From Paramecium tetraurelia (Eukaryota; Ciliophora; Oligohymenophorea; Peniculida; Parameciidae): 64,000 nucleotides of DNA. Positions 19,539 through 59,854 of the stretch are shown one piece after another. Every line of letters starts with the position of its first letter. Positions within the stretch are counted from its first letter, which is position 1. Under the pieces are notes generated by a model. The model saw nothing but the letters and a program-made list of their open reading frames with translations, made no database searches and was not told the origin of the DNA. The stretch covers positions 470,935 through 534,934 of the forward strand of contig NW_001799178.1 of NCBI RefSeq assembly GCF_000165425.1. Reading direction: 5' to 3'. The translations under genes were made by a program, and so were the position numbers.

Positions 19539-20662
19539 TCATACGTGCAAATCCCTTCTAGTTGGGAATGGTTTTAGAAGCTTAAAGTTAACTTATGTTT
19601 CAGGTTTATTTTAAAGTATAGCTTCTATTTTTGCTTCAACCTCAGGTGTGATCAATTTTATAGCTTATATTGACTTAATGGTTTCCTCTAATTACTCAAC
19701 TCTAGAAGCTGATGTTAGGGCAGTGCTAACATCCTTATTTTTTAAAGCCCAAGCCAACGATAATTAGGCTTATGAAATATTCAGTTCTTTGGCTAACTCA
19801 CCTAATTTTTTTAATTATGACTAAACTTTAGCGGCATCTTTTTATAGATAAAATATAATACATTCAGGATTTCCTAATGTTCTCTCATAAAAACCTTTCA
19901 AGTAAGGATTATCTGTATTTTTAAATCTACCATCTGCAAAAAGATCATCGTTATATTTTCCTGTCAAAATTCCTTAATATAATGGTGACCAAATGGTAGA
20001 TCCATAACCTTAAGCAAAAACATTATTATAGCCCCATTCAAACTTATCTCTAACCAACATGTTGTATTGCGGTTGTTCTGCAACAGGTTTGATTAGTTTC
20101 AATCTATCGCAAATACCTTGAATAATTTAAAGATATTACCGATTGCTTCTAAAATTTATTGAGCTGTCCATTCACTTGTTCCCCAATAATGAGCCCAACC
20201 ATGTCTAACTACCCAATCAAAGGCTCTACAAACTTCTTCCAAAGGAGTTTGTGGATCATACCTATGTGCAAAGACAATGTCAACATATTCTAAGTCCAAT
20301 CTCTTGAGTGAATTTCTGAGACCTACATAATGAAATTGAGTCGTACCTTCAATGATATGTTTTCTTGAAAGAAATCTGGAATTTGGAAAATCGTCTTAGG
20401 CTGTTCCAAAGTATATCTTTGTGCTGACTACGTAATCTTGTCTTTAAACATTGAGTGTCTTGAGAGCATTCCCTAATTGTATTTCCGCTTTTCCTTTTCC
20501 ATATCCTTCTGCTGTATCAAAAAAGTTGATTCCCAACTCCCAAGCCTTCTATATAATTTTGATATTCCTCTCCAAAGTTTCGTTGTCGTCTGCATTTAAC
20601 CAATTTCCAAATCCGATGGCAGACACTTTGAGTCCTGTTGATCCTAGTCTTCTGTATTCCAT
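19539..20662 (-). CDS. Aldo-keto reductase, voltage-gated K+ channel beta-subunit (Kv-beta/AKR6) type, 366 aa
   Basis: NADPH-dependent oxidoreductase with a TIM-barrel fold. From ATG 20662 the start is typical of the family ([19 protein letters not shown]). The catalytic tetrad is present: Asp and Tyr in [12 protein letters not shown], Lys in VVSTKIYFG, His in IVFAHRYDP. Other conserved pieces are [38 protein letters not shown] and SPLYQGILTGKY. The last, with the overall length, favours the AKR6 group (Kv-beta and fungal/plant relatives) over shorter AKRs. One 23-nt intron near 20110-20135; spliced length is 367 codons. Whether it binds a channel or acts only as an enzyme cannot be told. TGA at 19539-19541. 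Confidence 0.9.
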
Positions 20663-20782
20663 TATGATATAAATATTTTCAATAAATTATTGTTTATGAA
20701 AGAGATTGCATTCTGAATTCTTAAATAAGAATAAAATGATATTATAAATAATACTTTACTAAGTGAAATTAATTAAATGTGT

Positions 20783-23700
20783 TCAATTTTCAGCAATTAT
20801 AGCACACTTTATGATGTCAATGCATTTGTGTTCAGTCTCGAAGTGATTAAATATTGCTAAGGCCTACATATAATTGCATAATTACATCCAAATATTAGGA
20901 GATCCCATTTAGTTCTTTTATTGAACTTATGAAAATGATGTCATCCAGGATGTCTTGAGCATCAGATATCGTGTACTTGTAGAAGATATTCTATTTCACA
21001 TGCTTACCAAGTTATTAGTACACGTAATTCGTCAAGTGTCCGACTATTGATTTTATCACACTTGAATGATAGTAATCAAACATTTTTATTATTTAAGGAT
21101 CTTAACTTATCAATCCCTAAATAATAGCCTTTACTTCAACAGCATCAAATTAATTCAATCCAATAATCTCCTATACACACCTAAGGTACTGCTTATACAG
21201 CCATTTGCAATGATTCCCCTAAGAGAAGAAAAACAATCCCTTTAAGGGATGCTTGTTGTCTTCAAACCAATTCTTTAAGCTGATTTCAGCTAAATCCATC
21301 ATATTTTAAGCTTTTTAAATCTAATTTAAAAATTAATATGACTCACATTATATTAGATACATAACTGAAACAATAGGATGAACCATATGCTGTTTGATTG
21401 GTAATATTTTTAAATATCCATCAATCGCTTTTTGAGCACTTTATGAAATCCAATTATTTATTAACTTTTTGTTCAATCCAGATTTGCAGGCTTGAAAGAC
21501 ACTCAGTTAAAAATCCAATATCTTCAATTTGTAATCAATTTCAGTCACATCAGCCAAAATATTCAATTTCAGAGAATAATACACCTATTGTTTCTTCTCT
21601 TCATTTTAAATTTTCTACTTGATATCTTCAATTTAATTTGCAGGATCATCAATAAGCTACTATATCAATGTCCAATCCTCAACAGACTACAGAAATTTAA
21701 AGTATTCAGCAAATATCATTTAAAGTTATGAAACATGTAATCTATTGTCTAATCCTAATTGCAATTAGAATAGCAGATTTATCTTAGGCAAGTTCTACTC
21801 TAAGTTGATTAGAATTCGAATGTGATTCAAAATGGCTTCATTCATGAAATCATTATTGAATAAATGAATGTAATCGGAATCCTCACTTTCATCTATTAAG
21901 TACTCATATTCCATTATTTTTAGCTGTTTTAGAGTTGAATTTATTGGGTATTCTCGGTGCTAAGAATATTAATTAACAATACCAAGGCATCGTTCACAAT
22001 CGAAACTATGATCTTTTCCTATTTAAGGAATGTATTAATATATTGAAGAACTTTGTGAGAGTATTTTAAGGCATTCTCGAAGTCAATCAAATTGATGTAA
22101 TATTTGCATTAGAAATGAGCTAAAATAGCATAAATCAAAGTTCCCTCTCTGTAATCATTTAATTTAAGTCTATATGTTAAATAGGCTATTATAAATACAT
22201 AAATTGTTGTTTTGGCTCCATCTGACCAGTCATCGAACTGACAACTTCCAAATAGCATTTATATAAATCAAAATATCTAATTAAACTAGTTTGATTCTTT
22301 AATTGCGAAATAGATTCTGATACGATTTCCTAAATCAGGAAATAGTCCTGATTCATCAGGATATTGAATAATAAGTATTAGGAATGAAATTTAGGATCAT
22401 CAAAATATTTAAAGTCGCTTGTGTATTCATACAAATATCTTTATGGGTATGGTATGTACTGATTTGAGTCTTTGTATAGACTCTCTATTATCTATAGATC
22501 TTGTTCGAAACCTGGATGGGTTCTATGGAAGATGAAGGCTTAGGACTCTAACAATCTCGAAGTAAAACTATAAATCAAATCCACAATCTCTACTTATTAT
22601 AAATAGAGAAAGGAGTGTAATAAGCCCAGAATTATTATAGATGGTTAGATTTCGTCTGTTATGCTATCTTCTATCATCTGTATTGATTTTTTTAGACTAG
22701 TATGCTATTTAAGACTGCAATTCAAAAATTAACAAAATATTTAGTATTATTAATATTTAGGCAGGGAGGAATCTATCAAAAATTAACCTGCCTATTTATT
22801 ATTTATTTGGGTGCATTTAAGTATTTAACAGTAGAATTTTGGTTTGGATAAGAATTTCTTTATTTATTACACAGCATAGTTGGCAATCTCAGATTCTCCT
22901 TAATCTAGATTTTCTATATGTTTAGGGGAATAGGCAAAGCAAATAGATAAAAAGTAGAACATTTACAGTTCCTCTAAACATTACTAGAAAAACCACGAGT
23001 CCTTCCTTATTTTAAATTGGTTATGATATTCTTGCAATAGTCTTACATAAGAGATTTTGTTTGAAAATCTAATTGATTTAGTTTTAATCTATTTAGGTAT
23101 GGAATGACTAATAGGTTAAGAGTTATCCAAATGCAAGAGTTATTAAATTAGTTTAATTTGAACTAGACAATTATAGGAATCAAGTGTAATAGGTAATTTG
23201 AAATTAATTTTAGAGAGTAGAAACCTCCTATTTTCAAGTGTTCGTTGCAGATTAGAGAAGATGAATATCTATCTTTTAATGAATTCATCATCATTAGAAT
23301 TAAATAGATGCAAATACTTATGGCTCGATATTTCTTACCATTTCATAATGCTGACACACAAATACTTTCCAATCTCACACTTCATTTCTTACTGTAAGTC
23401 TTGTTAAGGAATATCTTCTTTTCTTAACAATTTTAATTAATTTTGATAAAATTTAAATACTGGTTCATATATACTATTTAGTTCCTAAAAGTCGTTGTAA
23501 TAATATTAAAATTATTCATTTTTACTATCATAAAGATTTATCAAATATAAAAATTTCAAGTAAAGCATCTAAGTACAATACAGCTGATCTCCATTAATCA
23601 AACAGCCGGTTCTTGTATCTGTGTTATCTAAAGCTATTTGTTCCTCTTCTACAGGTGAAGTTTATTCAAGATTGATTAATCCTGGACTGTGGTCAAGTGG

Positions 23701-26700
23701 AACATTTAAACATTAAGGGGCTGGTTCTCTTAATACTAACTTTTCTTAATTAGATATAACATCCAAGTATTGAATTCCTGCCATAATATAATTTTGATTG
23801 AAATAGTAATCGATTGCTTTAATGGTTTAAAATTAATTTAAATATCTTTGCAATTAGGTCTGATATTGAACAATCACGAGAATATAGTCCTAGTTCTTTC
23901 TTAGTGTATTTATGAGATTCAACCTTTCAAATGAACTTATAGATGATTACTTTTCAGACGTTTATTTCAATTTCCTTTTCAATACTATACATTATTCAAT
24001 TTCTGATAGATTCTCTAATTTCACATTCAAACTTAATTGTCTAAACATTACTCTGATTTATGCACTGCACCTTTTTAACCCATCAATCAATTAAGATATC
24101 TCATTTTCGAAATCTTTTCTGACTGCAAACAAAGCACAAATCTTAAAGTAATAAATTAGTAAAGTATCCAAAACCTTTTTGATTTCATTCGATCTCAAAA
24201 TGTAATGACTAAGGTTTTTAGAAAACGAATTTACAAAAAATGGTAACAATTCTTAGGTAGTTTCATATTGAGTGATTCTTAGGTATTCTTCTACTTCTTT
24301 TATTAGAATTAAGCATTTATCGAATTACTTGATTCTAAGGTGGAAATTGATTTGATGCTTCATATTTTCCATGTAGATTTGATAAGATTGCTCTTTTTAA
24401 GCATATGCTAATTAAAAGTCAATCTCCCAAAAAGATTTCTGATCCAACATCATGTCAAGAATTTGGATCGGAGTTTTGTCAGCATGAATGATTTCGATTA
24501 AGAAGTATTTTAAGGGATGATCTAAATTCTACAACGCTTGCTCAAAATCTTCTATTGGCTATAGATAGATCATTTCAATAACAACTTAAACTAATTGCCA
24601 TACTTAATTGTTGTCCTAATTGACTGAATTCAAAATCATGTATTCATTTTGAATAAGTATATAATTGTAAATCGACAAATTCATTATATGATGTTTGGTC
24701 ATTATCTTTAAATTAGCAAATATAAATTGTCTCAACTCATCCAATGTGTAATATAAGGCGTATTTCTTTCTGAATTACAATACTTAATATAAACTCTTAC
24801 ACTCTGAGCATTGATATAATGATATGCAATACCCTTTGATAAAAAAGTCGTCAATTTAATCAAGTATATTCAATTATTTAATATAGTTCTAACTCTCCCC
24901 AAGATACACTCCCAATCCATCATTATGATATTGCTGAAATTGCAATTACTAACCATGTCTAACTTAAAAAAACTACATTAGATATTCTTTATCCTCCACG
25001 CTAACTATCCAAAGTATGTCATGCAAGTGTTTCTTCATTTTTATATTGGGAATCTAATTTATTTCATCAAGAAAATATTGCATTGCATATTCTTCAACTT
25101 TTAAGGAATGCTGTTCAAATATATAAGTGTCCTTAGCTTTATCAATGACTTACTTATAAACTTCTGATTTCAAAGACTCTAGATAATAGGTTTTTTAAAT
25201 TGTTCTACTGCTTGTAGATGAGAATACAAATTGCTTTTTTTACCTAGATAAAATTATCAATTATAATATACTCGTATTCTAATTTGTTGAATAAATCAAT
25301 AAATTGAGTGAAATTGTATCTCTGAATGCATGAATACTAAACAATAGTTCCAAATTTCTTATGAATGTCTGATTCAAATTGAATTTCCTCTAACTTTTTA
25401 CTAGCCTCATAGTACTCTAACGCATATTAAATAGATTGCTTCCTTAGAGTTTATTTTCTAAATCCTCTAAAAAACAAACCTTTGTATCTAAATATTTATA
25501 CTTTTCTACAGTTTAACCAAGATCTCTTCTCAATAAAGTTCTGATATTTATAAACTAATTCATTGTATTCTTTGACTTCTTCAGATGTGAGAGTATTACC
25601 AAATTATTGAAATTGTTTTCTAAATTTGAGCATAGCCTAATTTCTATAGTATTCGTGTTGTTTGTCAAAACTCTTTTTCAAAATTAAATACCTCTTGTAA
25701 TCCAAATTATGAAATAAATGGGATTTCCTTTAAATATAACTTTGAGCAATAAATAATCTATAATCGGTCCAAAACATATTATAATTAGAGAGAAGATTCA
25801 ATCTAAAGAAAAATCTCCAAATTTTGGTTCTGACTTGAATGAGTTACTTTTCCCCCTTTGAAGAAGATTGAATTCTAAAAGCCCAATGAATGGATCTATT
25901 TGAGTAGTATTTGAACAGGAAATCATAATTCAATTTCTAGACTTATTTTATTTTTTTCATGCTATCCTTTATTTTCGATTTCATATTTCTTCGAGTGTAT
26001 GTCTCTTGTTTTACAAACTCATTGACAGGGACAATTATTTAGTTACTTGATTAGTCAAACGAATCTGCCTATATTTTCTTTTGAGTATTTTAATTGGTCG
26101 TAAGAAATTGCTGCTGCTATTACGACTTATTCTTAAGATTTAATTGATTCATCTTGAAATTAAACATTTCTTCTTCATATACTAATCTCTTAGAAATTTA
26201 TTTACTATTCTTAGTGTAATAGTCAGCAATTTCATCTTCAGAACTAATCGTTTCGAAACGTTCATATTTACGATAGATAGATGATCCAAACACTTTAAAA
26301 AGTGGACATCTTTACAATTTGTATTTGTTATCTTGCTGGGACAATCTGTTTAATTTTGATTTGCTTTAAATATTGCTTTTAAATATATATTGGCTTCTTT
26401 TCACAATTTGATCCAATATGATAGGAGAATTACCGAATATGGAATTAGTAAGGTATTTAATAAAAAAGTTATAAAACAACAGTGCTAAAAATAGAATGAT
26501 GACTTGATCTTTCATTGTTTCGTAATAATACATGCAAATCAACCCTGTATTACTTAGGAGTGTCATATAATTAATCAACTAAAAAAAGTCATCCCAAATC
26601 CCTAAAGAACCATCTCCTTTTGGCCAAGGTCTTTGAGAAATGTAGAGTAGTCGTAATTTAGATATCTACACTTGTAAGATAGTCCAAATCCAAAATAAGG

Positions 26701-29700
26701 TTACGCTAAATGGAAATAAACAACCGAATATATTTATTAAAGTTAATTACAAAAAAAAGTCCATGTGCTCATCTATGTTTCCATATTTTTCAACACTTTT
26801 TTAAAAAGGAATTCTTTGTTCTTAAATTTCAATAAAATCACACAAGCTTTGCTGGTTGTTTGGGTATAACTTTTAAGGGTTCTTCACCATATCGTTTTGG
26901 AATGTCATTAGGAATTTAATCACTTACATCAAAAACATCAACATCATCGTAGTCCCAAAATAATACTCAACATTATGTCTACAATTTTCTTCCTTGCAAT
27001 ACAACTGCAAAGGGGAATTCAGAAAACTAACCATCAACAATGGGACAACCTGAGAGGAACAATGTAATGTGTATTTTTTTATGATATAACTAGTTTCATA
27101 TTGATAAGAAGTCTAGAAATTCTCGAAATCTGTTAAAATAGTAGCAATTTGTTCATAAAACGAACTGATTAATAATTAAATGACATAATTGAGTGAAGCT
27201 GTCACTATGATCTCAAAATATTAAAAGTAATTTCCTAAATCTATGAATTCTGACTTTAGATACAAATTAAAGAAGTATAATCCAATTATTCTTCCAATAT
27301 CAGATCCAATCAGAAATATTAAGATGAAAATAGATATAACCAATCTCTGAATGAATTTCGAGTGTATAACTCCAATTGAATTCAATTCATCACTCTCAAT
27401 TGACCTTACATTTTATCCTTTAAATGAACTACGTATAATGCTCTCTTTAACATTTCTATTTTATCCAAACTTGAGATTAAAAGTTAACTACTATTAATGC
27501 CAGCAGTCTGTTTAAAAGGAATTCCAATGGACTATTAAAATGGAAAAAACCGATACGGTTGCTGTGTATACTTCATTATTGTAGTTCTATGATATGTACA
27601 TTAACACACTAAATAACAGTCCTAAGGCTGCCATAGGAGTTGAAAATTTAATGAAGTAAGAAGTAAATTCAAAGTACAATCCTATCTTCTCCCCAAAATA
27701 GGAACAAATGTTATCAGTTGGTATAATCCATGGATGTAAATAATCCAGATTCCATTCACTTGCAATATCAAAAGGCTTTTTCTTATAGTTATGCTTTTCT
27801 TCACTTACTGCTTTTTAGATACTTTTACATTGGCCAAACAACTCATATTGATCATGCAAACTGAATAGTTGTTTGACAAACTATAAATTGATTAAAGTAT
27901 TTAAATTAATTGTTTGAGTAATAACGGAAGATGCTAATTTCAATCTTTCATTATTTGGAAACAATGTAATTTAGTTTTATTCATTTTTAATGTATCTGCA
28001 CCATTTAAGTTTGTATTTGGCAATGTTCTTTAAGGATTCCCCAATGAAATTAATTTTAAAAGGCACATATAATTCAAAAGGTTTTTAATGGTACCTATCC
28101 CAAATTGTTTTTATATAGTGTTGAGAACAATTGGCAACCTTAAGAGCCTCTTGAAATATGTTCAAATAATTATGAGCTAATTATTGCTATTTGATCAATT
28201 TGATGGATTTTAATTTTGGTAGATCAGCTATCAAAGGAACATTGTACGAGAGATCTATTAATTCTCTTACTTTTTCATACATTTCACTTATTTTGTCAGA
28301 GGCGTCGTCGCTTAAATCAGTAAATTAATTAATCTATTCTTTTCTATTAGTTCTAATTCCATATAGTTGTTCAACTGTCTTTTATCCATCTACACATAGA
28401 GCAATGTCACTATCTATTTGATGCTTACTTCTTTCAATCTATATATGCTTATTTAAATGAACCAAATATTTATAATATGCTGTCCACTCCTCATCCGTTG
28501 GCCCATCCTAATCTCCATATAAATCAGACTTTCCATATTCAAATAACTCAATATTTAAACCACTTTGGCCTACTTCTCTAGCCAATCTTTTGAAATTAAT
28601 CTATCTTATTTAATCAATGATCAGGGGTCGTAAGTATTCTAAATAAGGAGAATTATCATATTCATCTGGTCTCCAGAGTCTGCCATTCAATCTTAAAGGA
28701 CGATACTATTTGTCCACAGGTTCTAAAGACAGAAGATCTGTGAAACAAAAGCTTAATTTCTTTGGCAATGCGAAATTTTCAGCAGCAATTTCGAGCATCT
28801 TTTCTGTCATATACAAACAAAGATAGATGGTTTATCCATCTTTGGATATAAACGATTTCACATTGAATCCTTTTCTAGATAGTTAAATTATCAAAGCATT
28901 TCTGATGAGAGTCAAAATATCTTGGGTTTCATTTCTTGTTCGAAACCAAGATTAACCTTATCTTTTGAGGTATTCTCCTTAACTGTAGGCCTTCTTTTAA
29001 ACGTATTCCAATTTATGCATGTCAATTTATAAACAATCAGTGATATTATGTAAACTGCCTGCATAATGTGAGATGTTATCTTTTAAATAATTTCTAAACT
29101 TTTTCACTAATTTACTCATTGGATCTTCTTTTTTATAAACAGGGAAATCGGATGTTCTATTCAACTAATTGACGATGTTCTCCACAAGAATTAGGGAATT
29201 GGGACTTCTATCTGGGGATTTTTGAAATAATTATTACGAAGTTCCAAATTATACCAAAGTATTTCTTTGTTATTGTTGATTTGAGTCTATATTTCTTGTT
29301 TTTAATTCAAATAACGAATATATTTTGCGATCAGCGAGGTGAGTGAAGGCATTTTCCAAAGCCTTTATAAATAGTTTATCATAAATTGACTTATCATCTA
29401 TCTAAAGAGACTTTACAATTTATTCAAAAATTTCAAATTGCTTTATACTGTAATCGTATTCATCTGGAATCAAATCTGGGTTGGGAAGACTTTGAAATTC
29501 ATAAATAAAATTACATTATACCTTATGACTGCTTCTGGTAAATCAAATTCCATTATTGTATTTTCATCTATTTATGGAATATTGTTGAGAGCATAAAATC
29601 GTTTTTCATCTGCACGCCCAATATCTTGACCCAGAAGCATTTTCAAGTAGATTTCGTATATCTTGACATAATCTTCTATTTAATCTAGTTTTTTTTATCT

Positions 29701-29775
29701 TCTAGTTTTTTGTGTTATTTCTGGAATCAGTTATTGAAAACACTAAATTGAGAGTTTGGAGGTAAAAGCATGCAT
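20783..29775 (-). CDS. Giant anoctamin (TMEM16) protein with ~1,800-residue C-terminal extension (~2,954 aa)
   Basis: Anoctamins are Ca2+-activated Cl- channels and/or lipid scramblases. ATG 29775 (MHAFTSKLSIQ). After about 640 soluble residues the TMEM16 core follows: YFGEKIGLYFEF, FSTPMAALGLLFSVLMYI, VFSILIVHWNSFQTDCW, the TM6 region near 27230, EHMDFFLQLTLINIFGCLFP (TM7/TM8), QRPWPKGDGSLGIWDDFF and INYMTLLSNTGLICMYY, ending with FYNFFIKYLTNSIFG near residue 1115. The same frame continues to TGA 20783-20785. Compared from memory with the family motif EYMEM...FPLAP...NNIIEIRLDA, the TM7 acids are kept (E, D) but the TM8 Glu and Asp read Gln and Ser, so part of the Ca2+ site may be lost. Introns of 32, 22, 29, 23 and 22 nt give exactly 2,955 codons. 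The extension is helical and charged, without a domain I recognise. Confidence 0.8.
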
Positions 29776-30250
29776 TTTGCTTTATCTACTTTATCTTTAA
29801 TTCATGAGAATATAAAAATTCAACTTAAGAATTTTATTATTAGAATTATAAACTTTCCAGCAATGAATCTTCAATTTCTTTAAAAAGAGTATATTAATTT
29901 AAATTAAATTAAATCGTAACACGAATTGTATATATTAACATTATATTAAAGTACATCAATTTGATTAATATTAACTTCAAATTCAGAATTTAACCATAAC
30001 ATTATAGATTTAATGCCAACAAACACCAACATTTCATTGAAATTTAGCGACTCCTCCTCGATGATTGAAATGTTAAAATCTTTAAAAATTGAATTAATAA
30101 ATCAAGTTTAATTAGAGAATTAATAAGACAAGAAATTAATATTATTATAAAACTAATACAAATTAATTTATTTATAGAAATTTACTGATTTGATTATTGA
30201 TAGGATTTAAAATCAAGTTAGGAAGAACTAGCGATATATATTAATAAGAA
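29776..30250. other. Intergenic stretch between anoctamin and CDPK genes
   Basis: About 475 A+T-rich bases between the start of the anoctamin gene (minus) and the 3' end of the kinase gene (minus). The only notable content is the weak plus-strand ORF listed at 30013. The rest looks non-coding and must include the anoctamin promoter. Confidence 0.4.
30013..30250 (+). CDS. Possible small coiled-coil protein, 3' end unresolved
   Basis: From ATG 30013 a plus-strand frame reads MPTNTNISLKFSDSSSM and then a regular helical stretch (KSLKIELINQVQLENQQDKK). It stays open into the 3' end of the kinase gene on the other strand, so the stop or a last intron is not located; the end given is only the kinase boundary. 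Composition looks more protein-like than neighbouring spacer, but there is no family match. Confidence 0.3.
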
Positions 30251-32149
<1,899 letters not shown>

Positions 32150-32639
32150 TTCCAATTAATTTTAATAAGAAAGTTAATTATTTATAAATTCAACATATGT
32201 CAAATCAGTATCATGTAATAATTAGAAATTCAAATCTTTATATCGATTTTCCAAAAGCATTCCTTATATTCTCATTGCAAATTTAAGAATTCGATTAGTC
32301 TCTCTCAATCTCAATCAAAAGATTTCTTAATTTAAGAAACAATCCAACGACTTGTACTATTAGAACCACAATTTAACATCATTTTATTAGATAAATTGGC
32401 TTAGATCTGAAATGCAAGTGAGAGTTATTGTGTAATAATTCAAAATACTTTGTTTATAAAATATATTATTGAACTGATTATTTATGCAAGTCTATTCCTT
32501 CAAATTGAGGTATCTATGCATTAAGTCTATTGCATATATCTATTTTGGAAGCAATGAAAATCACGTTTAGTTAACTTTAATTTTGATTGTTTTTAATTTT
32601 GGAAATTTTATTAATTTCTTAGAAATTATATAAATAATT
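32150..32639. other. Intergenic stretch between divergent genes
   Basis: About 490 A+T-rich bases separating the divergent starts of the kinase gene (minus, 32149) and the next gene (plus, 32640). Holds the weak ORF listed at 32197; otherwise nothing recognised. Both promoters must lie here. Confidence 0.4.
32197..32421 (+). CDS. Possible small hypothetical protein (74 aa)
   Basis: ATG 32197 to TGA 32419-32421 without introns. Reads MSNQYHVIIRNSNLYIDFPK, then a helical, Ser/Arg-containing stretch (SLSISIKRFLNLRNNP). Its composition is balanced, but a 74-codon TGA-free frame is not rare here and no family is recognised. Confidence 0.25.
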
Positions 32640-35840: not shown

Positions 35841-38800
35841 ATGATTCTCGAAGAAGCTGTAATATAAGATATTTCTATTTCTAGCTTGGAGTAGAGGATG
35901 ATTATGTAAGATTGCAAAAGATTGCCGAAGGGATTAAGCAGATTTCATAAAGCTTGAAAACCTAAAAAAATTTCAACAGTCCTTCTCTAATTAAACAATG
36001 TAATTGGAAATTGCTATATAAGTGATTTGCTCATATCCATTTTCAGACGTCACCATTGAGATGCTCTTAGATGAGTGTTTTGAATAGCACAAAAGCGACC
36101 CCAAATTCATTATGGCATTCCATAAGGCATTACAAGAAGTGGCTATTCTTTAAGAATTCAGACAATTTTTAGGCACAAGATCCTTATTCAATAAATAAAA
36201 CCGTCAGCTATCACATAAGTAAGTAAATGAGTATAATTTTTAGCAATAATATTACCTCAATACTTAGAGAGTAACTGAAACAAGGGTCAATCCCTTTTAG
36301 CAGAGAAGTCATAGAAAGATTAATAATTGCAAAACGATTTTCAGTAAAATTTATTATCCCAATATTTACTCTATCCAAAGAGTACAAATTTGATCTGGAA
36401 TAAATGGCATCTATATTTAAACTTTTCCTAATGCATACCAAAAATGAAGAATTCTAACTCCAAATTATTGATATCTACGAAGAATTAAAATTGTCAGTAC
36501 TTAAAGATCTCGAATGGATTGAGGAACACAATTAAGAATTAGAAGATTGTAATTTATTATTTGTAATCTTAGATTTCATATAAAATAAAATTAAAGTCCC
36601 TTAAAAATTAATCTAAAGTAAATTGATGCATATAAAAAATAAAAACAAAAAATTGCTGCACCAACATTTCATTAAGAAATGCAACATGAAGAGTGAAACA
36701 GAAAGTGATTCTTTATCTGTTAGTCCAGAACAACCAAAAATAATAGATTACAAAACTAAGATTTAATAATGGCTTTGTACAAAAGAAACCCCTGTTATTG
36801 ATTTGGATAATTATGTCTATTTTACTAACTCCGAAAATCTAAACTCTCTTCTTTCTTTTATTTTGAATCCATGTAAAATTGATTTAATTGCGGATTGGGT
36901 ATTATTAGAATTCATTATAATAGGAATTGACATTCACAGATCTAGAGGCCACATTCAAAAAGAAACACTTTAAAAATCTTCCCATTAAATTAGATAAATT
37001 GCAAATCATTAGATCATATAAAACTGTCTTATTATTTCAAAACTAAAACAATATTCGTCAAATTGATAAACTATTAACCACCTTTGTTGAAATTTCATGT
37101 ATAGATTTAATCTTAAAATAGTTAGAAGAATATATGATTCCTTAATTAATGATGAAATTAACTTAAACATTAATCACTTAATTAATTTCCTTGAATAATT
37201 GATACTTTTAAATCCATAAAAGAGTGCCTATTAGATCTTAGAATACAATCTATTATTTACCTTCTCACTTTATATTTATAACCATTAAATGACTACCTTC
37301 ATAGGAGACATGTTGAGCTTATGGATAGATAAATTTAAATTTGGTTTTTATTTATAAGAACAAATATGGAAATATTTAGATTATACAAATTGGTTTAACT
37401 TCCTCTTTCAAATTTTATTGAAACAACCTTAAAGAAATGAGTAATGCTATTAGGAATACAAAACATTAAAAATTGTAAAATTTTCAATTATTAATTTAAG
37501 GATGGCATATTGGCTTTTGTTAAATTGTTAAAATAGCCTGAAAAAACCTAATAGACATAGAATGACTTCTAGAATTCTGTCACCAGTCGATAAGAACCGC
37601 TCACTCCGATCGAATTTTCAGAAGAATAGCAAATCTTAAATTCCTCATAGTGGATGTTGGACAATAACTCTACAGCAAATTAAATAATGGAAGATATGAG
37701 TTAGAAAGATATAGACAATCTCAAGTACTTTAGCATTGAGAAGAACAAATCAATTATGACAGAATTATAGGAGTCTTCACCTTTAAGAATTAGAATTTTA
37801 TAATCCTCTTATAATAAGGGATTTTATGGCTAATCATCAGACATAACTAACAAAGCTATCCTCTCTCCAAAGGGGAAGATGAATCATAGTTCAGTTAGTC
37901 TGCCTTCAATAGACAATAAAGCACACAAGAGTGAAAGTGTTGATTCCTAGAATTGCCAAAATTATGCATCAAGATAAAGGAATAAAACTTATATCATATC
38001 ACAAGATGGGTTTTCTACTACAAAGCTTATTTCAATTTATCCAAGAAGAAATATCGATTTATAGTTCACTCACTTTGAAACTGCTTAATCATTCTTTATT
38101 TACAATAAGCATACTTTAAAAAGTTGTACTAGAGTATTTAAAATTTTGAATGACTCTATATTCAACTCTCTTTATTATTAGGATAATTTGGTAAAGGATT
38201 CTTTTTAGAAATAACAATTCTTAAATCTAGCTTAGAGAAATTTCATTAATGAACGAACTATCCTAACGTTATTTCAAATTTATTTATATGGAATTTTCGA
38301 TGAGGAAAGTAAAGTGCTTTAGAAATCGTCAATTGAATGTGGTCTTATAATAAATGAGATTTATAAGAACTCCTTATCATTGCAAGAAAAATCATTAAAT
38401 AATTTACTCAAAAACTGTTTTAGTTAAGTTGCTGATTTTGTGAGTAAGAAATTAATAGAATTAAACAATTTTACATAGCTAACTGACTTTAAATTCAAAT
38501 AATTTTTATTATTTAGCACTTTAGTAAATGGCTTGCAATATTTTGATCTTTATGATCCTAATAGGGATGAGAAGAACATTTATAAGTACTTAAATGAAAC
38601 TGTGATGCATATACTAATAATATGGTTTTTTAATAGTCATTAAAATAACATTTTCTAATCGAACTTTGTTAAGTAATTATGCTTCTTAATAAAAGATTAA
38701 TCGCCATCCTTTTTTCTCGGGCACCTCAATATTAATTGTAGAATCTATTGTTCCATGTTGGTTTATTGACATCACTTTTTAATGGGTATAATACATATAA

Positions 38801-39261
38801 TAGAAATGGATGCAAAAATATAGACTATGTTGAAAGTTTATACATGAACATTATGTATTTAATATACATAATAAATGCTAATGTTTACTCAAGATAACTA
38901 GCATAATTAATTTCAAATTTAGAATCATCAGCATCATGGAAAGGCATTTAATAAACTATTTGTGAGGTGTAAAACAATTACTTGAATCAATTAAATTAAT
39001 TAATGAAATTGGACAGATCCTATTCAGTTAAAAAAATAAAATCTAGTTAGAAGATCCTTCTGTAGCCAAACTCTAAAGATTCAATTAGGCCTAAAAATGA
39101 CTCTAAGAATGATAATTCTTAATTAAATGAACTTTTAAAATAAAAGTATTAGTAAATTATTATTTATTAGATCAATAACTAAGGAATCATCACCTGTTAA
39201 ACAGTAAATGTAGATCAAGAAATTAATTAGATATAGAACTAAAAATAGCATAAAAGCATGA
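35841..39261 (+). CDS. Large helical protein of unknown function (~1,100 aa), three phase breaks
   Basis: ATG 35841 (MILEEALGVEDDYVRLQ), TGA 39259-39261. Five introns (26, 25, 25, 26 and 25 nt) are needed. The product is mostly helix: IAEGIKQISQSL, TIEMLLDECFEQH, REVIERLIIAKRFSVKF, LQIIDIYEELKLSVLKDLEW, LTQTLITQLI, TLFQIYLYGIFDEES, LYMNIMYLIYIINANVY and a basic C-terminus (KKLIRYRTKNSIKA). A Ser-rich central linker is seen near 37600-37900. Three single-base phase breaks (A run 35964-35970, T run 37196-37198, T run 38710-38715) are each repaired by adding one base to the run. The open plus frame beyond 39261 is the shadow of EMG1 on the other strand. Armadillo-like helical repeats are possible. 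Confidence 0.5.
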
Positions 39262-42442: not shown

Positions 42443-44682
42443 TCATGTCATCTTTCTTATCTTTATGGCATTCGAGAAAATATTTTTAGATAGATCCTTT
42501 TTATATGTTGCAGATGAGATTCTAAGCTTGGAACTAAATGATTTTACTAGGGTTGGAGTCTAAAAAACTTCACTAGCCTTTTTTCTCATAGACATCTATT
42601 TGGTATATTCTTCATTGACGTATGGCACTTGCTCGGGGTCAAGTTTACCAGATACTATATCAGAAATAACTCTAATTTATTCCTCTTATTCAACGATTTG
42701 CTAATCGAAATCTTTAAATTTCTAAAATGTTATTTTATAAATACTGGTTTTTCCACAGGTTTATAATTGATGGAGGTAACAAAATTGAATTTAAGTTATT
42801 TTTTGCCATCCTTAATTTCATAAGCATCATCTTTTGAAACTTTTTCTATAATATCTACTATCTCTCCTTCCTCATTTACATACTAATTATATTTACAAGT
42901 AATGTAACCTTTAGCAATCATCTAAAGTACCTATAATCGTTTTTGCATTTTCTTTAATTATTTGAGAAAGTATTCTTTTCTTAATTGATTATCTGTTTTG
43001 CTTCTGGGTTCAAGTTCAAAAAAATTCCCAATATTTTCTTATTATTTTTTCATGAGAAGTTCATATTCACTGTTTAATTACTTGGAGTAATTTGAAGATG
43101 CTTCCATAAAGTTGAGATTTTGATATTTAACATGAGAAGCATAACTTTTGATTGCATTGTAGAATTATTCTTTGAGTTCTTGATTTCTTCTACTCGAATT
43201 ACCTCCCCAGTTGATAACTTCATCATTTACAACATTTTGGGTTTTGACAAAATTATCCAATTGAACTTCTGGTTATTCATTGGTTGTTAGTTCAAAATTA
43301 AAATGGGAAGATATTTTAGTGCTTTTAACATTTGGATTTATTATTTTCTACAAGACTCTTCTTTTGGGTTATTACTCACTATTTTTAGGATAATTATCTG
43401 CTAACTTTGTTTATGCATTTGTATGTGTTTTCTCAAAGGATAAATTTTTATTTGAATGTTACGCTTTGCATGTTTGATGTTAAAAGAATTGATTAAATTA
43501 TTAGGTATTTTGGATAATTAAAGAATTAGGCAGAATTTTAGATTTTTATTACTTAATCCCTTTATTTGATTTTAATTGATTGCTAATGTTTTTGGGATTA
43601 AATTCAGTCTCCTATAATTGAAAATTCAATTTGCAAGTACTAATCTCTTCTAAATAGGCTAAGTGAGCTTTTAGTTCTTCTGTATTAATTGGTTATTTAG
43701 ACAATTCAACAAATCTCTTCAATCTGAAAATCCATTTCTCTCCAATAAGGAGAAATAATATGTTCCTTGACTCTCTTTGCCAAACTTTCTTCTCGAATTC
43801 TACATTTGAAATTCTAAATAACATTGCTGAATCACAAAGACACTTAATATTAAAATACCTTTTATCATAATTCAAAAAGCTCTCTTCTCCAAAGACTTCT
43901 CCCTCAGCTAATCTAGTCAATTAATGTTCAGTTTAGTTCTCATCTCTTTTTGTGAGTGAAAATTCTCCCTTAAAAACAAAGTATGCCCAATCGCATTCCT
44001 AATCGCCTTCTTAATAGATTGTTTCATTTTTCTAAGGTTTGATAACTTCTAATTTGTATGCGAAATATTTAATTTCATTATCGGAGAATTGTTAAATGTA
44101 GGTGAGCTGTTTCAGAAATGCTATTTTTTCATTATTTTCACTCGATTTGATATTTGAGTTTAACTCGATGATAAATTTAAAATCTAGACAGGCTACATCT
44201 GTTTGTCTTAGTGTAACTGCAGTAGATTTCTAAACATCCTGTAAGCCAAATTCATTGAATGATTATCCAAATGTCATTTCAGAGACTTGAGAATATTGTT
44301 GAATATCCGAAATATCTGTGAAAGTCTTTGGTTTGGTGGAGTCAAGTTCTTAGGTTACTAATACTCTACCACTTAGGATGATGTAGGTGGTTCTGTTAAC
44401 TGATATATTCTAATTAGGCCCAAATGTTTTTAAATAAAGGTGTTTGCATAGTTGTTTCATAAAATCTGCATTGTATTTGGCTTTTATTTTCTCAAAATAT
44501 TGAAAACAAGACATATATTCTATTATCTGTGAGAAATCTTATTCGGTTCTAGATAAATAATCTTTTTATAAAACTTATTTTATTTTTGAGATATCTTGAG
44601 GTTGATTGCCAATCTTTGATAAAATATTAGAGGCTGAGATAATATGAACAGCATGTTAAAGTAATTGAGATTTGCTTTTCAT
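42443..44682 (-). CDS. Protein with two cyclic-nucleotide-binding-like domains (738 aa)
   Basis: ATG 44682, one 23-nt intron near the 3' end, TGA 42443-42445; exactly 739 codons. The N-terminal helix block (LSRTEQDFSQIIEYMSCFQYF) leads into two CNB beta-rolls. The first, degenerate, has TTYIILSGRVLVTQ and ACLDFKFII. The second has the clear CNB pattern: NETIYQEGDQECDWAYFVFK, GEFSLTK, EVFGEESFLNYDKRYFN, MLFRISNVEFEKKV. There is no kinase, channel or GEF domain; the remaining 380 residues are polar and low-complexity, with two coiled stretches. It may be a cAMP/cGMP sensor or a structural relative such as those found in cilia; ligand binding is not certain. Its ATG overlaps the TGA of the upstream gene (ATGA). 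Confidence 0.8.
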
Positions 44683-45289
44683 TTAGATAATTATTTATTT
44701 TAATGACGATATTATATATTAGAACCAGGAATCGCACCGTCAGGATGTTTATAAAAATTAGAACTATATTCAGGAATATGATAAGCCTTATCTCCTAAAA
44801 AATGCGTTCTAATTCCATTTCGATTGTCGTTAACTCGCACTTTTCTTTGCATTTCATCTTCCAATATGTAACCTTAATAGGTTTCCTTATTGGCATGCTA
44901 CAATACTATTGGAAATAAATGACCTCGAAGGTTTTGATGCCATAATCTACATCTTCTAGATGGCCATCCTTTTCCTAGCGCAAATGTTTCTTTTCAAAGT
45001 AAATTTATCTGTCCATGGGTTCAAATTGCTTTCGAAAATTGGGTTCTGAATAAAACTTCTCCAATCTCGATGACTCTTAATTATTGAGTGACTGTTTCAC
45101 AGTAGGAGTATTCAAGATCTGGAATTAATTTTATATTAAAGATTTCTAGACTTTCGGTTACACTTAGCCAAAGAATGTATCACTTTCCCTAGGAGTGATA
45201 ATTTCTAAGGCTTGTTATTCGAACTTCTTTCTTCCTTTGTCCCTCCATTTTTAAGGTTTCAATCCGTCCCAATCCATATAGGAATACAT
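44679..45289 (-). CDS. Probable ciliary/axonemal protein (194 aa), unnamed
   Basis: ATG 45289 (MYSYMDWDGLKPQKWRDKG), one 26-nt intron, TGA 44679-44681; exactly 195 codons. Basic, extended, with many charged and aromatic residues and few hydrophobic cores: REKFYSEP-type segments, MDRQIYFEKKHLRQEKDGH, and a C-terminal GIRTHFLGDKAYHIPEYSSNF. This style (short, Tyr/Pro/Lys-rich, no globular domain) is common in microtubule inner proteins. It shares a 17-nt divergent promoter gap with CFAP300, which supports a ciliary role; both points are inference. Its stop overlaps the next gene's start by four bases. Confidence 0.55.
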
Positions 45290-45305
45290 TATATTAATAT
45301 TAATT

Positions 45306-46087
45306 ATGTAAATTGAATCAGACAATTAAGTTACAAATCAGAGTTACTCTTTTTTTAGGTAAGAGAATACGATTTTGGATGATAAAAAGTTTATGGAAAT
45401 ATTGTAGAAATGGGGTCTATAACATAGCATCAAAGTGAGCACATTTTTATTTGATATCAAATTTGATCATCTAAATCCAAATCAATTTTTGTTGGATTTA
45501 TTCAATTCTAAGGACGTAAGAGGTTCATTGCATTATGTTTCATTTAAATAGAATGTGTTGCTATCATAGATTAAATTTTAACCTTTGACATGCAAATCCA
45601 TAAAATTGGACTTATTCGATAAGTTAACAGAAGATAAAATTGTTGTCAAGGGTCACATCAAGTAGTGTTTCGAGGAATAATTTGAAAATATTCAGATAGC
45701 TGATGAATTACGTAAAGCACTTGTTTTGGAAGATTCGGAACAATATTGTGTATTCAATGAAGCTGACAGATAAGAATTATTATTCAAATTATTCCAAATT
45801 CTAGTTCTGGGGGGATAGCTTTGTTAATATGAAGATGAAATACAAGCCTATTTAGATTGGACAAAGTATTTATACAAAAACACAGTCAAGTATCATGTGA
45901 ATTAATATAAAGTGCTCGAAAATATGCAGATAAGGATGAGATTTACATAGATTCTTATGCTTATGACATTAGGAAATTAGAGAACTCTTACAGTTCAGAT
46001 CATCCATAAAATGTAATGTATGTCGTTGTGAACCCATCATTAAGAATTGTTAATATCATAGAAAACTAATGGTTAAAAGTATGGTGA
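45306..46087 (+). CDS. CFAP300: CFAP300, dynein-arm assembly factor (252 aa)
   Basis: Conserved ciliary protein needed, in animals and algae, for cytoplasmic assembly and transport of axonemal dynein arms. I use ATG 45306 rather than 45393, because the upstream 29 codons stay open and give YSFFRQENTILDDKKFMEIL, which matches the family's N-terminal pattern. Then WGLQHSIKVSTFLFD, FDHLNPNQFLLDLFN, the core YCVFNEADRQELLFKLFQIL-VLGGQLCQYEDEIQAYLDW and, after a 23-nt intron, a C-terminal YVVVNPSLRIVNIIEN. Spliced length exactly 253 codons; TGA 46085-46087. Only 16 nt separate it from the divergent minus-strand gene at 45289, so the two probably share one promoter. Confidence 0.85.
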
Positions 46088-50485: not shown

Positions 50486-53400
50486 ATGTCTAATAAGGGA
50501 GAATCTTTAAAATTTGGATAGGTGATCTCAATAAGTCCATTAGCCAATTAATCCCTTTTTGTCTATAGCGACGGATTAGTTAAAACGGATGCCAAGGTAA
50601 TTGTAGAGAAATAAGATTAGTTAGTCGAAATATCGCCTGACATAATGGCTGCAGGTTCACTCTATTACTACAGTTTGTATAGAATTTACCCTGATTTCAT
50701 TACAACCAAATTGCAAATGGCTATAAATTTTAAAGAAGAAACCATGCAGGATGATAATTCAAAAAAAATGTAGAAACTCAAAGATCTCCAAACCAAAGTA
50801 CAAATCTAAACTTAACAATAGATTATAGCAGATTATAAATCGAACATAGATGTTTCAACCAAATATAAGGATAAGCCATTATCCTTCAATAATTTAATTT
50901 AGTTTATGCATGTAGCAACAAATCGATTTTTGTCTTTATCTAGTAAGGAAGCAAAGGACGAAAAGGAAAACTTTCGCTTGGAACTAGTAGAATATCCTTC
51001 CTCAAAAACGGTATTTCAATTATAACCTGCCTTCGTACATTAAAAGGAATCGAATTCAGAAGTTTATGCAGGCGATAGTGTATATATCATGTGTGATCAC
51101 ATTTATTTGGGAATCAAGCCGAAACTAAGAGCCACACTTAAGTACGGTGTTATGGATACATATGAGTATCTACAGGATAGATCTATCTACGCAGTTCCCA
51201 ATTTAAAATTGCTCAAGAAAATGACAGACCAACTAGCACAATAATAGGATGTCTTAGAAATCACTCCAACTATTCAGAAATTCTAGAAAGTCGCCAGTTT
51301 AGCCAAAGGGTAAAGCATTCGAAGACAAACAACATGTAAATTTGAGTGCTAAATTATTTAGTAAAATAAGAAGAAGAAGTAAAGCCTGTCGGGTAAACGA
51401 GTGAAGTCAATATTTCATTGGAACATCAGAGTCCTTGGGTATTAACGGTGTTCTGTAATTAAAATGACAATGAACAAATTATAAGTTTTAATGATGTTAT
51501 ATGGATTCATCATATTGAAGAAAATTCACTTTTAACTTTGGGTAGAAATCAGGATAATGAACTAATAATAACATTTTAGAAATAGTCAAATGAATAATAG
51601 AGCGAATTTAATGGCGACTCCAATGGAATGTTTTAAATTGAAAATGAAGATCTAAACAAAGGAGGATTAGTTGAATGGGGTTAGAGTCTGAGGTTGAGAC
51701 ATTTCATTCTTGGCAAATATTTAGCAATAAATTATGAACCAATAAAATCGGGTTAATTGTTGTTATACTTATCTGATCAACCCACACCCAATACTCTATT
51801 CTAATTTTTAGCAGTACCAACTATGGGATCCAATACAGTAAGCTAGAAATATGTCACTAAAGATGCCTTTATGAAGATGAAAGCAGTGGGTAAATCCTCA
51901 TAATGGGTACATCTAGAATAAAAAAAAATTGTAATTCAATATCTATATATGTTATTAGTTATAAGCAAATAGTAAATACAAGGACACTGTTGTTGAGGAA
52001 GATAAATCAGTAATTGTTATTAGATTAACTGATAATACTGAGGATGATGACGTATTGAAATTGTACAAGGCAAATTATAGTGATGTTCTAGAAACAAACT
52101 TTCTAATTACAGGTTTCCCAGTTCTTAGAAGAGGATTAACTAAACTCAAATCCAATAAAGATATGACTAAGGAGGCACAGAAATAACAAATGATCAAAAC
52201 ATATAAGAAATTAACTACTACTATTGAAAAGTTAGAAAAGTTTTGTAAAAATTCTTTAATCAACACTTAACTTGATATTAAAAACACCAAAGTGGCGATA
52301 TTATAGAGATAGAAAATACTAAGAGAATAATACTTCATTGATCTCCTAATAGAAATTATGAAATAAATTACAAACGAAGATGAATTAAGATAATATAGTG
52401 AGTATTAGTTAGCCCAGCATAAGGCAGCTTTAGAAAAGCAGACGAAGACTACACTTGCTGTTTCTTAGAGATCTCATATTGGTTCAGATATCAGTCCCTT
52501 AAGAGCAAAAGATTCACAAATAAATTCCTTAAGTATTGTATGACTCTATTATTTTCAGATTAAATTGCAGTTGGGAGATCGGCAGCTAGTTAGTTAGTTT
52601 CATCCCATCAAATATAATCTTAGCAAAGAACTTAAGCAAGAAAAAAGAAAATGGAAATGGCATTTTTGTCTGAAAAAATGAGTGTGCTAAAAGTTATATA
52701 TCGATTGCTTAGAAGCATTTGTTAGGACAATCCAGAGAACTAATTTTATATTTACAAATTGTTTCCAAACTTTCTCTATTAAATCAAGTATTTCAAAGAA
52801 GCAACTGATTGTATCATAACAGTTCTTAGTGGTAATGAACAAATTTTAATCAATTTGTGTGATCATATTAAATTAAATGAGAAATTAAAAGCTCGACAAT
52901 AAGTGGATAGTGATGAGTCCTAATTATCAGATGAAATGGATATTCAATTTAATTCATCTGCTGATGAAAAGAAAAATATATTATTATATTATAAAAATTT
53001 GACAGAAGATAGTTAAGGATAAAGGAATATTCAATATTTATAATTTTTCAGATGCATATGCAGATTAAATGACTAAAGTATATCTGTAAATTAAGAAATG
53101 ATATTCAAATTTATCAAACAAAATGAAAATTTTAAGGGTTCTTTGTTTATGCCAATCATCATGTAATTATCTTTAATATTCTTAGTGAATCCACCAAAAT
53201 GAAAATATGTGTAGATTAAACACAAATTGCATACATTACCAGTATCAAAGAGTAAATAATTATATATTATCGTAGTCCTTTAATTTAAAATTATTTAATA
53301 GAATAATTATTTTTATATGCAGATTTGGCATATTAGCGAAACTTTTTGTGGAAATCTTATTTGGAACGTATCTTTCCAACCCAATTTGTATTTAATTAAA

Positions 53401-59400: not shown

Positions 59401-59687
59401 AAATTTTTGATATGAAATCCGATGATGGATTTAATAAACATATCAAATAAAGTCATTATATGTGGAATTATGTTTTTTATATGGCTTACATGGATAACAA
59501 AAATAAAAGTGAATATAATGGAATAGAAACCTATATCGCAAATAAAAGAAAAAATTAAGATAATTCTTGGTTCCCTATTGGGTAGTCATTAGAACTTCAA
59601 GAAGAATTAGAAGATTAATAAATGATTGAGGAAAGGAAGATATAATCTTTATAATTAAGAGTAATAAATATTAATATTGTAGATTGA
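50486..59687 (+). CDS. IP3-receptor/ryanodine-receptor-type Ca2+ release channel (~2,900 aa)
   Basis: Intracellular Ca2+ release channel. ATG 50486 (MSNKGESLKFGQVISISP). The N-terminus has the beta-trefoil/MIR layout: DGLVKTDAKVIVEKQ, FMHVATNRFLSLSS, GDSVYIMCDHIYLGIKP, NISLEHQSPWVLTVFC, LRLRHFILGKYLAINYEP. A long helical (RIH-type) region follows. The channel domain is C-terminal: YVILWKDLCFLLTLVLNVFI, MSIFRYCGIGMIVCSCFVVS, YYLAYGVLAFIATLVHPFFF, LGLTFILVLLMNYYFTL, the pore CDSLLVCFLSTFDYAF then KNNGGIGGWFD, the pore-lining IFSGIIIDTFGELREQQ and the cytosolic zinc-finger-like ICFICGLDREIFD...FNKHIKQSHYMWNYV. The filter has GGIGG where IP3R/RyR have GGIGD. Many 20-31 nt introns; one at about 59090-59112 precedes the pore. 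TGA 59685-59687. Paramecium has an expanded family of such channels; the subtype is not determined. Confidence 0.9.
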
Positions 59688-59854
59688 TGGAATTAAATAA
59701 TAGAGCGAAAAAGTACTCTAGATTTTAAATGATATCTAAGAATAAGTAGGTTAATGAATTAATATAAATTATAATATGTTTAATATTAAAGAGACTAAAA
59801 AATTTTATTATTAATAAATAAAAAATGATGGAAATTTAATAAAATACAAGCTTA

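Follow-up and report, generated by a model that had tools for sequence, protein, structure and literature searches.

An anoctamin gene of Paramecium tetraurelia with a degraded Ca2+ site and a giant, probably helical C-terminal tail

Introduction

Anoctamins (TMEM16 proteins) are usually regarded as compact, Ca2+-switched proteins. In the usual architecture only a short extension follows TM10, according to excerpts of a review (PMC8640346), and the anoctamin chains listed in the PDB comprise 667-975 residues, save one YFP fusion (1,217 aa). ANO10/TMEM16K, an ER scramblase (PDB 5oc9), has a chain of 667 residues and a preserved two-Ca2+ site, as excerpts of its description indicate (PMC6718402). 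ANO6/TMEM16F and the fungal proteins afTMEM16 and nhTMEM16 share a homologous membrane core in listed chains of 735-975 residues, again with the exception of the YFP fusion. Among human anoctamins, yeast Ist2 is closest to ANO10; it tethers the ER to the plasma membrane, and beyond its anoctamin core extends a long cytosolic C-terminal region, part of which is basic (excerpts of PMC7387695). No study of a ciliate anoctamin was found among the matches listed in a search of the open-licence literature (titles and abstract openings). A lead to the Toxoplasma IMC scramblase TgDAT1 was dropped because "anoctamin" is absent from the main text of the paper on it (PMC13298984).

Here we describe a gene on the minus strand of a 64-kb window (the whole stretch of P. 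tetraurelia DNA that was analysed). This one gene is predicted to encode one polypeptide of about 2,952 residues, in which an ANO10-like membrane core is followed, after TM10, not by a short extension but by some 1,836 residues. All coordinates below refer to features on the minus strand unless another gene is named.

Results

Gene model and coding evidence

Between 29775 and 20783 the minus strand reads as one spliced frame in the ciliate code (table 6), with a single TGA at its end. Spliced translation gives a predicted product of 2,952 aa, or 2,953 codons including the stop; the "exactly 2,955 codons" of the first-pass annotation could not be reproduced. Exon 1 (29522-29775) is joined to exon 2 (25272-29489), a single open frame of 4,218 nt that carries the N-terminal cytosolic region, the anoctamin core and the basic proximal tail. 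The tail continues through exon 3 (22199-25243; 3,045 nt) and, in the splice model, through exons 4 (21983-22169) and 5 (20886-21959), with the last residues and the TGA in exon 6 (20783-20863). The five predicted introns span 22-32 nt, their lengths being 32 nt (29490-29521, ending in CAAAG), 28 nt (25244-25271, of the form GTA...TAG), 29 nt (22170-22198), 23 nt (21960-21982) and 22 nt (20864-20885). Translation may start at the ATG at 29775 or at that at 29805, which would add 10 aa.

Two joins in this model are soft. The join between exons 1 and 2 is the weakest: intron 1 has the lowest score (-5.48) among the eight introns scored, which leaves residues 1-85 less certain than the rest of the protein. 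Retention of the last, 22-nt intron moves the stop to 20832 and shortens the protein by 9 residues, with a score of 128.9 compared to 128.8 for the spliced form. Not one of the five introns has a length divisible by three, but we dropped this as an argument: the gene finder gains nothing by calling a stop-free intron of such a length, which makes the reasoning partly circular.

The gene looks real. Exon 2 has no in-frame TGA, compared to 65 and 36 in the remaining two frames of that strand, and exon 3 has none compared to 39 and 32; past the anoctamin core, 376 codons of exon 2 run without TGA where the other same-strand frames hold 6 and 15. The claim of one uninterrupted frame, free of in-frame TGA and broken by short introns only, through a huge C-terminal region is therefore borne out, and the one-gene model scores 128.8 compared to 116.0 for the one split that was scored. 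Codon usage ranks the gene's frame best of six in 53 of 74 windows, the genes used for scoring having come from a gene finder trained partly on this very gene. GC3 is alike in the core (0.317), in residues 1116-1500 (0.296) and in residues 1501-2952 (0.315). When GC content is followed in 60-base steps, 10 of the 150 windows in the gene have values of 0.20 or less and none of these adjoins another, whereas both flanks of the gene contain runs of adjacent windows of this kind. One of the AT-rich windows inside the gene is at 26140, and another, at 25240, covers the 28-nt intron; a plain statement that the gene has no AT-rich dip was accordingly dropped, since it holds for runs of adjacent windows only.

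These data also bear on the gene's boundaries. If the intron at 25244-25271 is retained, the frame stays open as far as 25142, where it meets a TGA; exon 3 has its first in-frame ATG 59 nt beyond this stop. On this reading an anoctamin with its basic domain (ATG at 29775; about 1,533 aa) and a tail protein starting at 25083 might be two genes or isoforms. An AT-rich 60-base window (GC 0.18) lies at 25240, albeit over that intron, and the windows flanking it have GC contents of 0.25 and 0.27. The 28-nt intron has the GTA...TAG form noted above and the best score of the eight (-2.30), the intergenic gap would be less than 60 nt, and the split model is 12.8 log units worse. We have therefore rejected a split at 25.2 kb as the gene model and regard two products as very unlikely.

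At the other end, an unsupervised gene finder joined the gene to the downstream Kv-beta-like aldo-keto reductase, giving one protein of 3,355 aa (19539-29805). After rescoring without the target's codons, fusion (174.9) and separate genes (176.0) are about tied, and the two introns that the fusion needs (-4.94 and -5.21) score no worse than intron 1. The reductase from Met 20662, however, aligns residue 1 to residue 1 of AKR6D1, and the DNA between the genes has two neighbouring AT-rich windows (20680-20799; GC 0.20 and 0.17). Because its solved relative is matched from the reductase's own first Met, we keep the reductase as a separate gene and consider a run-on protein extremely improbable.

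The anoctamin core and its Ca2+ site

Residues 679-1116 (26396-27709; residues 594-1031 of the exon 2 product plus 85) match PF04547 with E 6.1e-69 and 233.5 bits, compared to a curated cut-off of 28, over profile positions 1-459 of 460. The protein is thus an anoctamin by homology, and the clear TMEM16 core that had been placed at about residues 640-1115 is confirmed. Simple hydropathy resolves only five separate peaks in the core, and the full-length profile match suggests ten transmembrane helices. The closest solved relative is ANO10/TMEM16K (E 1.1e-14 and 2.1e-15 in two PDB sequence searches), with which the core aligns over ANO10 residues 196-577. About 680 residues precede the match. 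In this N-terminal region no Pfam match to a dimerisation domain appears up to E 5, nor up to E 10, and Pfam searches to E 10 return three DUF matches only, all below the cut-off (best E 0.012).

Alignment to ANO10 and ANO6 places the Ca2+-site region of TM6-TM8 at 26660-26938. Only two of the five conserved acidic ligands are kept, E992 and D995, both in TM7; the other three are replaced by Q940 in TM6 and by Q1024 and S1028 in TM8. None of the three asparagine ligands is retained in the same alignment, these positions holding M936 (in TM6), F937 and W1020, with the TM6 alignment less certain than that of TM7-8. ANO6, in contrast, retains the acidic ligands for which other residues are substituted here, and the loss of three of five acidic ligands also sets the protein apart from ANO10. 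The site of TM6-8 is, from its sequence, degraded, a feature absent from the first-pass annotation.

Neutralising mutations of TM6 and TM8 ligands strongly reduce the Ca2+ sensitivity of TMEM16A (excerpts of PMC8640346). Because its TM6-8 site is degraded, this anoctamin is probably not a canonical Ca2+-activated one. Ca2+ might still regulate the protein through the remaining TM7 acids, through another site, or through Ca2+-binding partners bound to the tail. Retention of E992 and D995 is consistent with this idea, as are the further Ca2+ site that ANO10 has at TM10-alpha10 (excerpts of PMC6718402) and the protein kinase gene (Pkinase match; 30251-32196) that adjoins upstream, in which EF-hand-like sequence is seen by eye. 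Replacement of the TM8 acids and of the TM6 acid, together with loss of all three asparagines, argues against it, and we regard such regulation as distinctly unlikely.

Composition, shape and relatives of the tail

The tail comprises residues 1117-2952, and its two parts differ. Charge counting gives residues 1101-1500 (25216-26443, a span that contains the 28-nt intron) a net charge of +38, whereas residues 1501-2952 (20786-25215) have a net charge of -18. The description of the tail as charged therefore fits its proximal part and not the distal part, in which K, R, D and E make up 21.5% of residues compared to 26.4% in the N-terminus. Similarly, its helical character is supported for residues 1501-2952, where the amphipathic moment (z 3.3) gives a modest helical signal, and not for residues 1116-1500, where no such signal is present (z 0.7). 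Overall the tail is free of membrane segments, as had been proposed, apart from weak hydropathy peaks at residues 1847-1865 (1.56) and 2360-2378 (1.68) that lie just above the cut-off of 1.5.

Single-sequence AlphaFold gives a pLDDT of 32.6 for exon 3 as a whole. A 206-residue piece (22453-23070), picked for the highest pLDDT in that run, is all-helical when folded alone, with a mean pLDDT of 64.0 (36-45 in the other four models). Foldseek gives this piece no match in PDB or BFVD at E <= 0.001; its top PDB rows, a designed helical repeat and 14-3-3 proteins, are not significant. On the basis of this model and the amphipathic moment, the tail is probably all-helical.

Pfam searches of the tail, taken to E 5 for exon 3 and to E 10 for residues 1116-1491 and 2506-2952, return chance-level matches and no credible relative, as do searches of NCBIfam with the two long-exon products alone (residues 86-2505) and of PDB sequences. 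These matches include a yqeY fragment (E 0.02), LEF-10 (E 0.088), UTP-glucose-1-phosphate uridylyltransferase (E 0.16), and nanobodies and a sybody (best E 0.065, or 0.37 when exon 3 by itself is the query). The C-terminal region is thus unrecognised in the profile searches as run, in agreement with the first-pass annotation, but its suggestion of a fused regulatory or cytoskeletal partner finds no relative and no significant fold match to sustain it. A TPR solenoid was considered and rejected: there is no Pfam TPR match, a scan with a 34-residue consensus is equalled by 56 of 200 shuffles, and the peak at lags of 30-42 is equalled by 97 of 300. The best paralogue candidate in the 64-kb window is a coiled-coil gene (E 0.18), which is not a relevant one. 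Scans of viral and prokaryotic contig collections, with both long-exon products as queries, give 2, 4, 13 and 4 pattern-matching stretches and no encoded relative; the missing orthologue means little because these collections are viral or prokaryotic.

It is a real, if doubtful, possibility that the protein is a ciliate anoctamin of the ordinary kind and that its tail, a helical expansion specific to the lineage, serves no discrete partner function; long regions silent in Pfam are common in this genome. Of ten sampled open-frame pieces of the window (about eight genes by gene models), four have no Pfam match at E <= 0.01 and one more has only coiled-coil-type matches below curated cut-offs. 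The same window holds an IP3-receptor-like gene (50486-59757) with a predicted product of 3,017 aa, and the tail has neither internal protein repeats nor tandem DNA repeats. On the other hand, all 1,836 tail residues stay open with coding composition, and both the PDB chain lengths and the short extension after TM10 given in the review speak against so simple an expansion.

Discussion

Our tentative explanation, which we place somewhat short of an even chance, combines an ANO10-like core lacking the Ca2+ switch, a basic stretch and a tethering helical arm. The polypeptide would consist, in order, of an N-terminal cytosolic region, the core, a basic stretch (about 400 residues) and a probable alpha-helical scaffold (about 1,450 residues), with everything after the last membrane helix cytosolic. 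Starting from the computed open frame, core, basic stretch and degraded site, we infer that the core may dimerise like other TMEM16s and pass lipids or ions without being switched by Ca2+ in the usual way. The basic stretch would rest against acidic lipid, and the helical arm might serve as a tether, whether to an apposed membrane, to the cell cortex or to a partner. Where the core is active, and perhaps whether it is active at all, would then depend on the arm rather than on Ca2+. Our best guess is a putative scramblase or leak, insensitive to Ca2+, that would sit in an internal or a cortical membrane and use its tail as a tether or scaffold. The bolder form, in which the Ca2+ switch is gone and the anoctamin is instead positioned or gated by its own giant helical arm, possibly ciliate-wide and at contacts between a cortical store and the plasma membrane, we think unlikely.

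The arrangement may be a new channel or scramblase architecture, known here from one locus alone. If the bolder form is true, a scramblase or channel carries its regulator within its own polypeptide. A single chain three or more times the size of those in the PDB, with a degraded Ca2+ site, would be a natural experiment in controlling the fold without Ca2+, and, in a cell whose membrane cortex is elaborate, would be a candidate for a tether or scaffold.

The proposed arm would act in the manner of Ist2, except that it would be folded instead of disordered: the Ist2 linker has little defined structure, whereas the tail here, of about 1,800 residues, is probably helical. The two proteins also differ in the order of their charges. 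In Ist2 the basic part that binds the plasma membrane is a C-terminal sorting sequence; here the basic part adjoins the core, and the C-terminal 1501-2952 segment is net acidic.

Gene structure and integrity

The minus-strand gene running from 29775 (or 29805) to 20783, with five predicted introns, encodes a protein of 2,952 (or 2,962) residues in which a TMEM16 core (residues 679-1116) is followed by approximately 1,836 residues. The first-pass annotation had described a clear TMEM16 core, and this is borne out by a PF04547 match to residues 679-1116 (E 6.1e-69) covering 459 of 460 profile positions. PDB sequences matched at E <= 1 comprise 20 distinct entries, all TMEM16 judged by their listed names, with ANO10 (TMEM16K) first (E 1.1e-14), followed by afTMEM16 and ANO6 (TMEM16F); afTMEM16 and nhTMEM16 are placed in the family by one of their listed names or by the identity of the entry. 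By homology, the protein is thus an anoctamin. It exceeds all listed PDB anoctamin chains (667-975 aa, bar one YFP fusion of 1,217), and the terms Paramecium, Tetrahymena, ciliate and alveolat- are absent from the main text of a superfamily survey (PMC5868767).

Exon 2 (25272-29489) is unbroken and carries the whole core together with about 375 residues of the tail. As the first-pass annotation had claimed, no in-frame TGA follows the core: residues 1116-1491 (376 codons) contain 0 TGA, versus 6 and 15 in the other same-strand frames. The sole frame-permitted break that we found is at 25.2 kb, where retention of the 28-nt intron (25244-25271) leads to a stop at 25142. A two-gene model divided there, with a second ATG 59 nt downstream, scores 116.0 versus 128.8 for one gene. 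Base composition provides a mild argument for one gene. GC is <= 0.20 in 10 of 150 windows within the gene (60-base steps), no two of them adjacent, and these include 25240 (over the 28-nt intron) and 26140; in the flanks, by contrast, such windows occur back to back in twos and threes (20680-20799, 29800-29979 and 30100-30219). The one-gene claim stands on the open frame and the split score, and its odds are therefore unchanged despite the weakening of the arguments from base composition and intron length.

The window is ciliate nuclear DNA in style, with TAA/TAG as glutamine (65 + 69 codons in the two long exons) and predicted introns that are short and GT...AG; the size of the introns and the style of the genes point to Paramecium. 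Gene models came from a home-made gene finder with intron weights set by hand, the first run of which joined the anoctamin gene to its downstream neighbour. Intron 1 has the worst score among all eight introns scored, and the first 85 residues are therefore the least certain. The last intron is optional, an unspliced form ending the protein at 20832 with equal score. By codon usage the anoctamin frame outscores the other five in 53 of 74 windows and is outscored in the remaining 21, and GC3 is 0.263 for residues 1-640, 0.317 for the core, 0.296 for residues 1116-1500 and 0.315 for the distal tail (1501-2952).

Downstream on the minus strand lies a Kv-beta-like (AKR6) aldo-keto reductase (19539-20662; 366 aa modelled), starting ~120 nt past the anoctamin stop. 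Separate genes score 176.0 versus 174.9 for a fusion, the anoctamin gene's own codons being excluded from scoring. Since these values are nearly tied, the anoctamin 3' end rests mostly on the reductase protein, which aligns from its own first Met (best PDB sequence match AKR6D1, E 3.2e-74; Kv beta-2, E 4e-69).

Calcium site

A review (PMC8640346) gives TMEM16A five conserved acidic Ca2+ ligands (E650 in TM6, E698 and E701 in TM7, E730 and D734 in TM8) and three asparagine ligands (N646, N647 and N726), and states that Ca2+ sensitivity drops strongly when the acids are mutated to alanine or glutamine. We transferred these positions to ANO10 and ANO6 by spacing; ANO6 has N, N, E, E, E, E and D at the seven tabulated columns. 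The acidic positions in the Paramecium protein are Q940, E992, D995, Q1024 and S1028, so that two of five acids are kept. None of the three asparagines is kept, the TM6 positions being M936 and F937 (the second is Q in ANO10) and the TM8 position, from the same alignment, W1020. TM7-8 is gapless in the HMMER alignment to ANO6 too; the TM6 alignment is less certain, but HMMER and MAFFT nevertheless agree by our count. Judged by these aligned residues, the protein is probably not a canonical Ca2+-activated anoctamin. Loss of the site need not abolish function, because ANO10 retains basal scrambling without Ca2+ (PMC6718402).

C-terminal tail

Net charge is +38 over residues 1101-1500 and -18 over 1501-2952. 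No credible Pfam family was found in the tail (exon 3, 22199-25243, to E 5; the pieces before and after it to E 10), and 4 of 10 other open-frame pieces from the window are likewise Pfam-silent at E 0.01, which sets the base rate. Neither NCBIfam, in a scan of residues 86-2505 that ended 447 residues before the C-terminus, nor PDB sequence search gave a credible family or relative. The amphipathic-helix signal is moderate in the distal tail (z 3.3), similar to those of the N-terminal region (3.4) and of an importin-like gene of the window (3.9; labelled by eye) and lower than that of a coiled-coil gene (5.9); it is absent from residues 1116-1500 (z 0.7). Run without an alignment, AlphaFold gave no usable model of exon 3 (pLDDT 32.6) but a fair one of a chosen 206-residue tail piece (64.0), which has eleven helices, no strand, and no fold match in PDB or BFVD at E <= 0.001. 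A TPR identity was tested and is not supported. Our guess, with modest support, is that the tail may form an alpha-helical scaffold.

The yeast anoctamin Ist2 links the ER to the plasma membrane as a tether, and the long C-terminal region that it uses for this has a lysine-rich part that binds PI(4,5)P2 (PMC7387695). The Paramecium protein shares the outline, with an ANO10-like core that bears a long cytosolic arm and a basic stretch. Its basic part is proximal, however, and its arm looks folded, so that the Ist2 layout is not reproduced, although the protein could still act as a tether. Taken with the degraded Ca2+ site, this plan suggests that the protein may be a scramblase or channel, either constitutively active or controlled by partners, which would be positioned by its arm.

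Neighbouring genes

A predicted 1,034-aa protein (35998-39261, plus strand) has no Pfam match at E 0.01 in two scanned pieces (36026-37063 and 37441-38766). A cyclic-nucleotide-binding domain protein (42443-44682, minus; E 1.6e-14) and a CFAP300 domain (cilia and flagella associated) gene (44382-46028, plus; E 9.2e-64) are also predicted. The second giant gene of the window is an IP3/ryanodine-receptor-like calcium channel (50486-59757, plus; predicted 3,017 aa), with a RIH_assoc match at E 9.1e-32 (piece 53203-57822). Directly upstream of the anoctamin gene is a CDPK-type protein kinase gene (30251-32196, minus), in which a Pkinase match (E 6.8e-14; piece 30783-31217) is followed by sequence that is EF-hand-like by eye.
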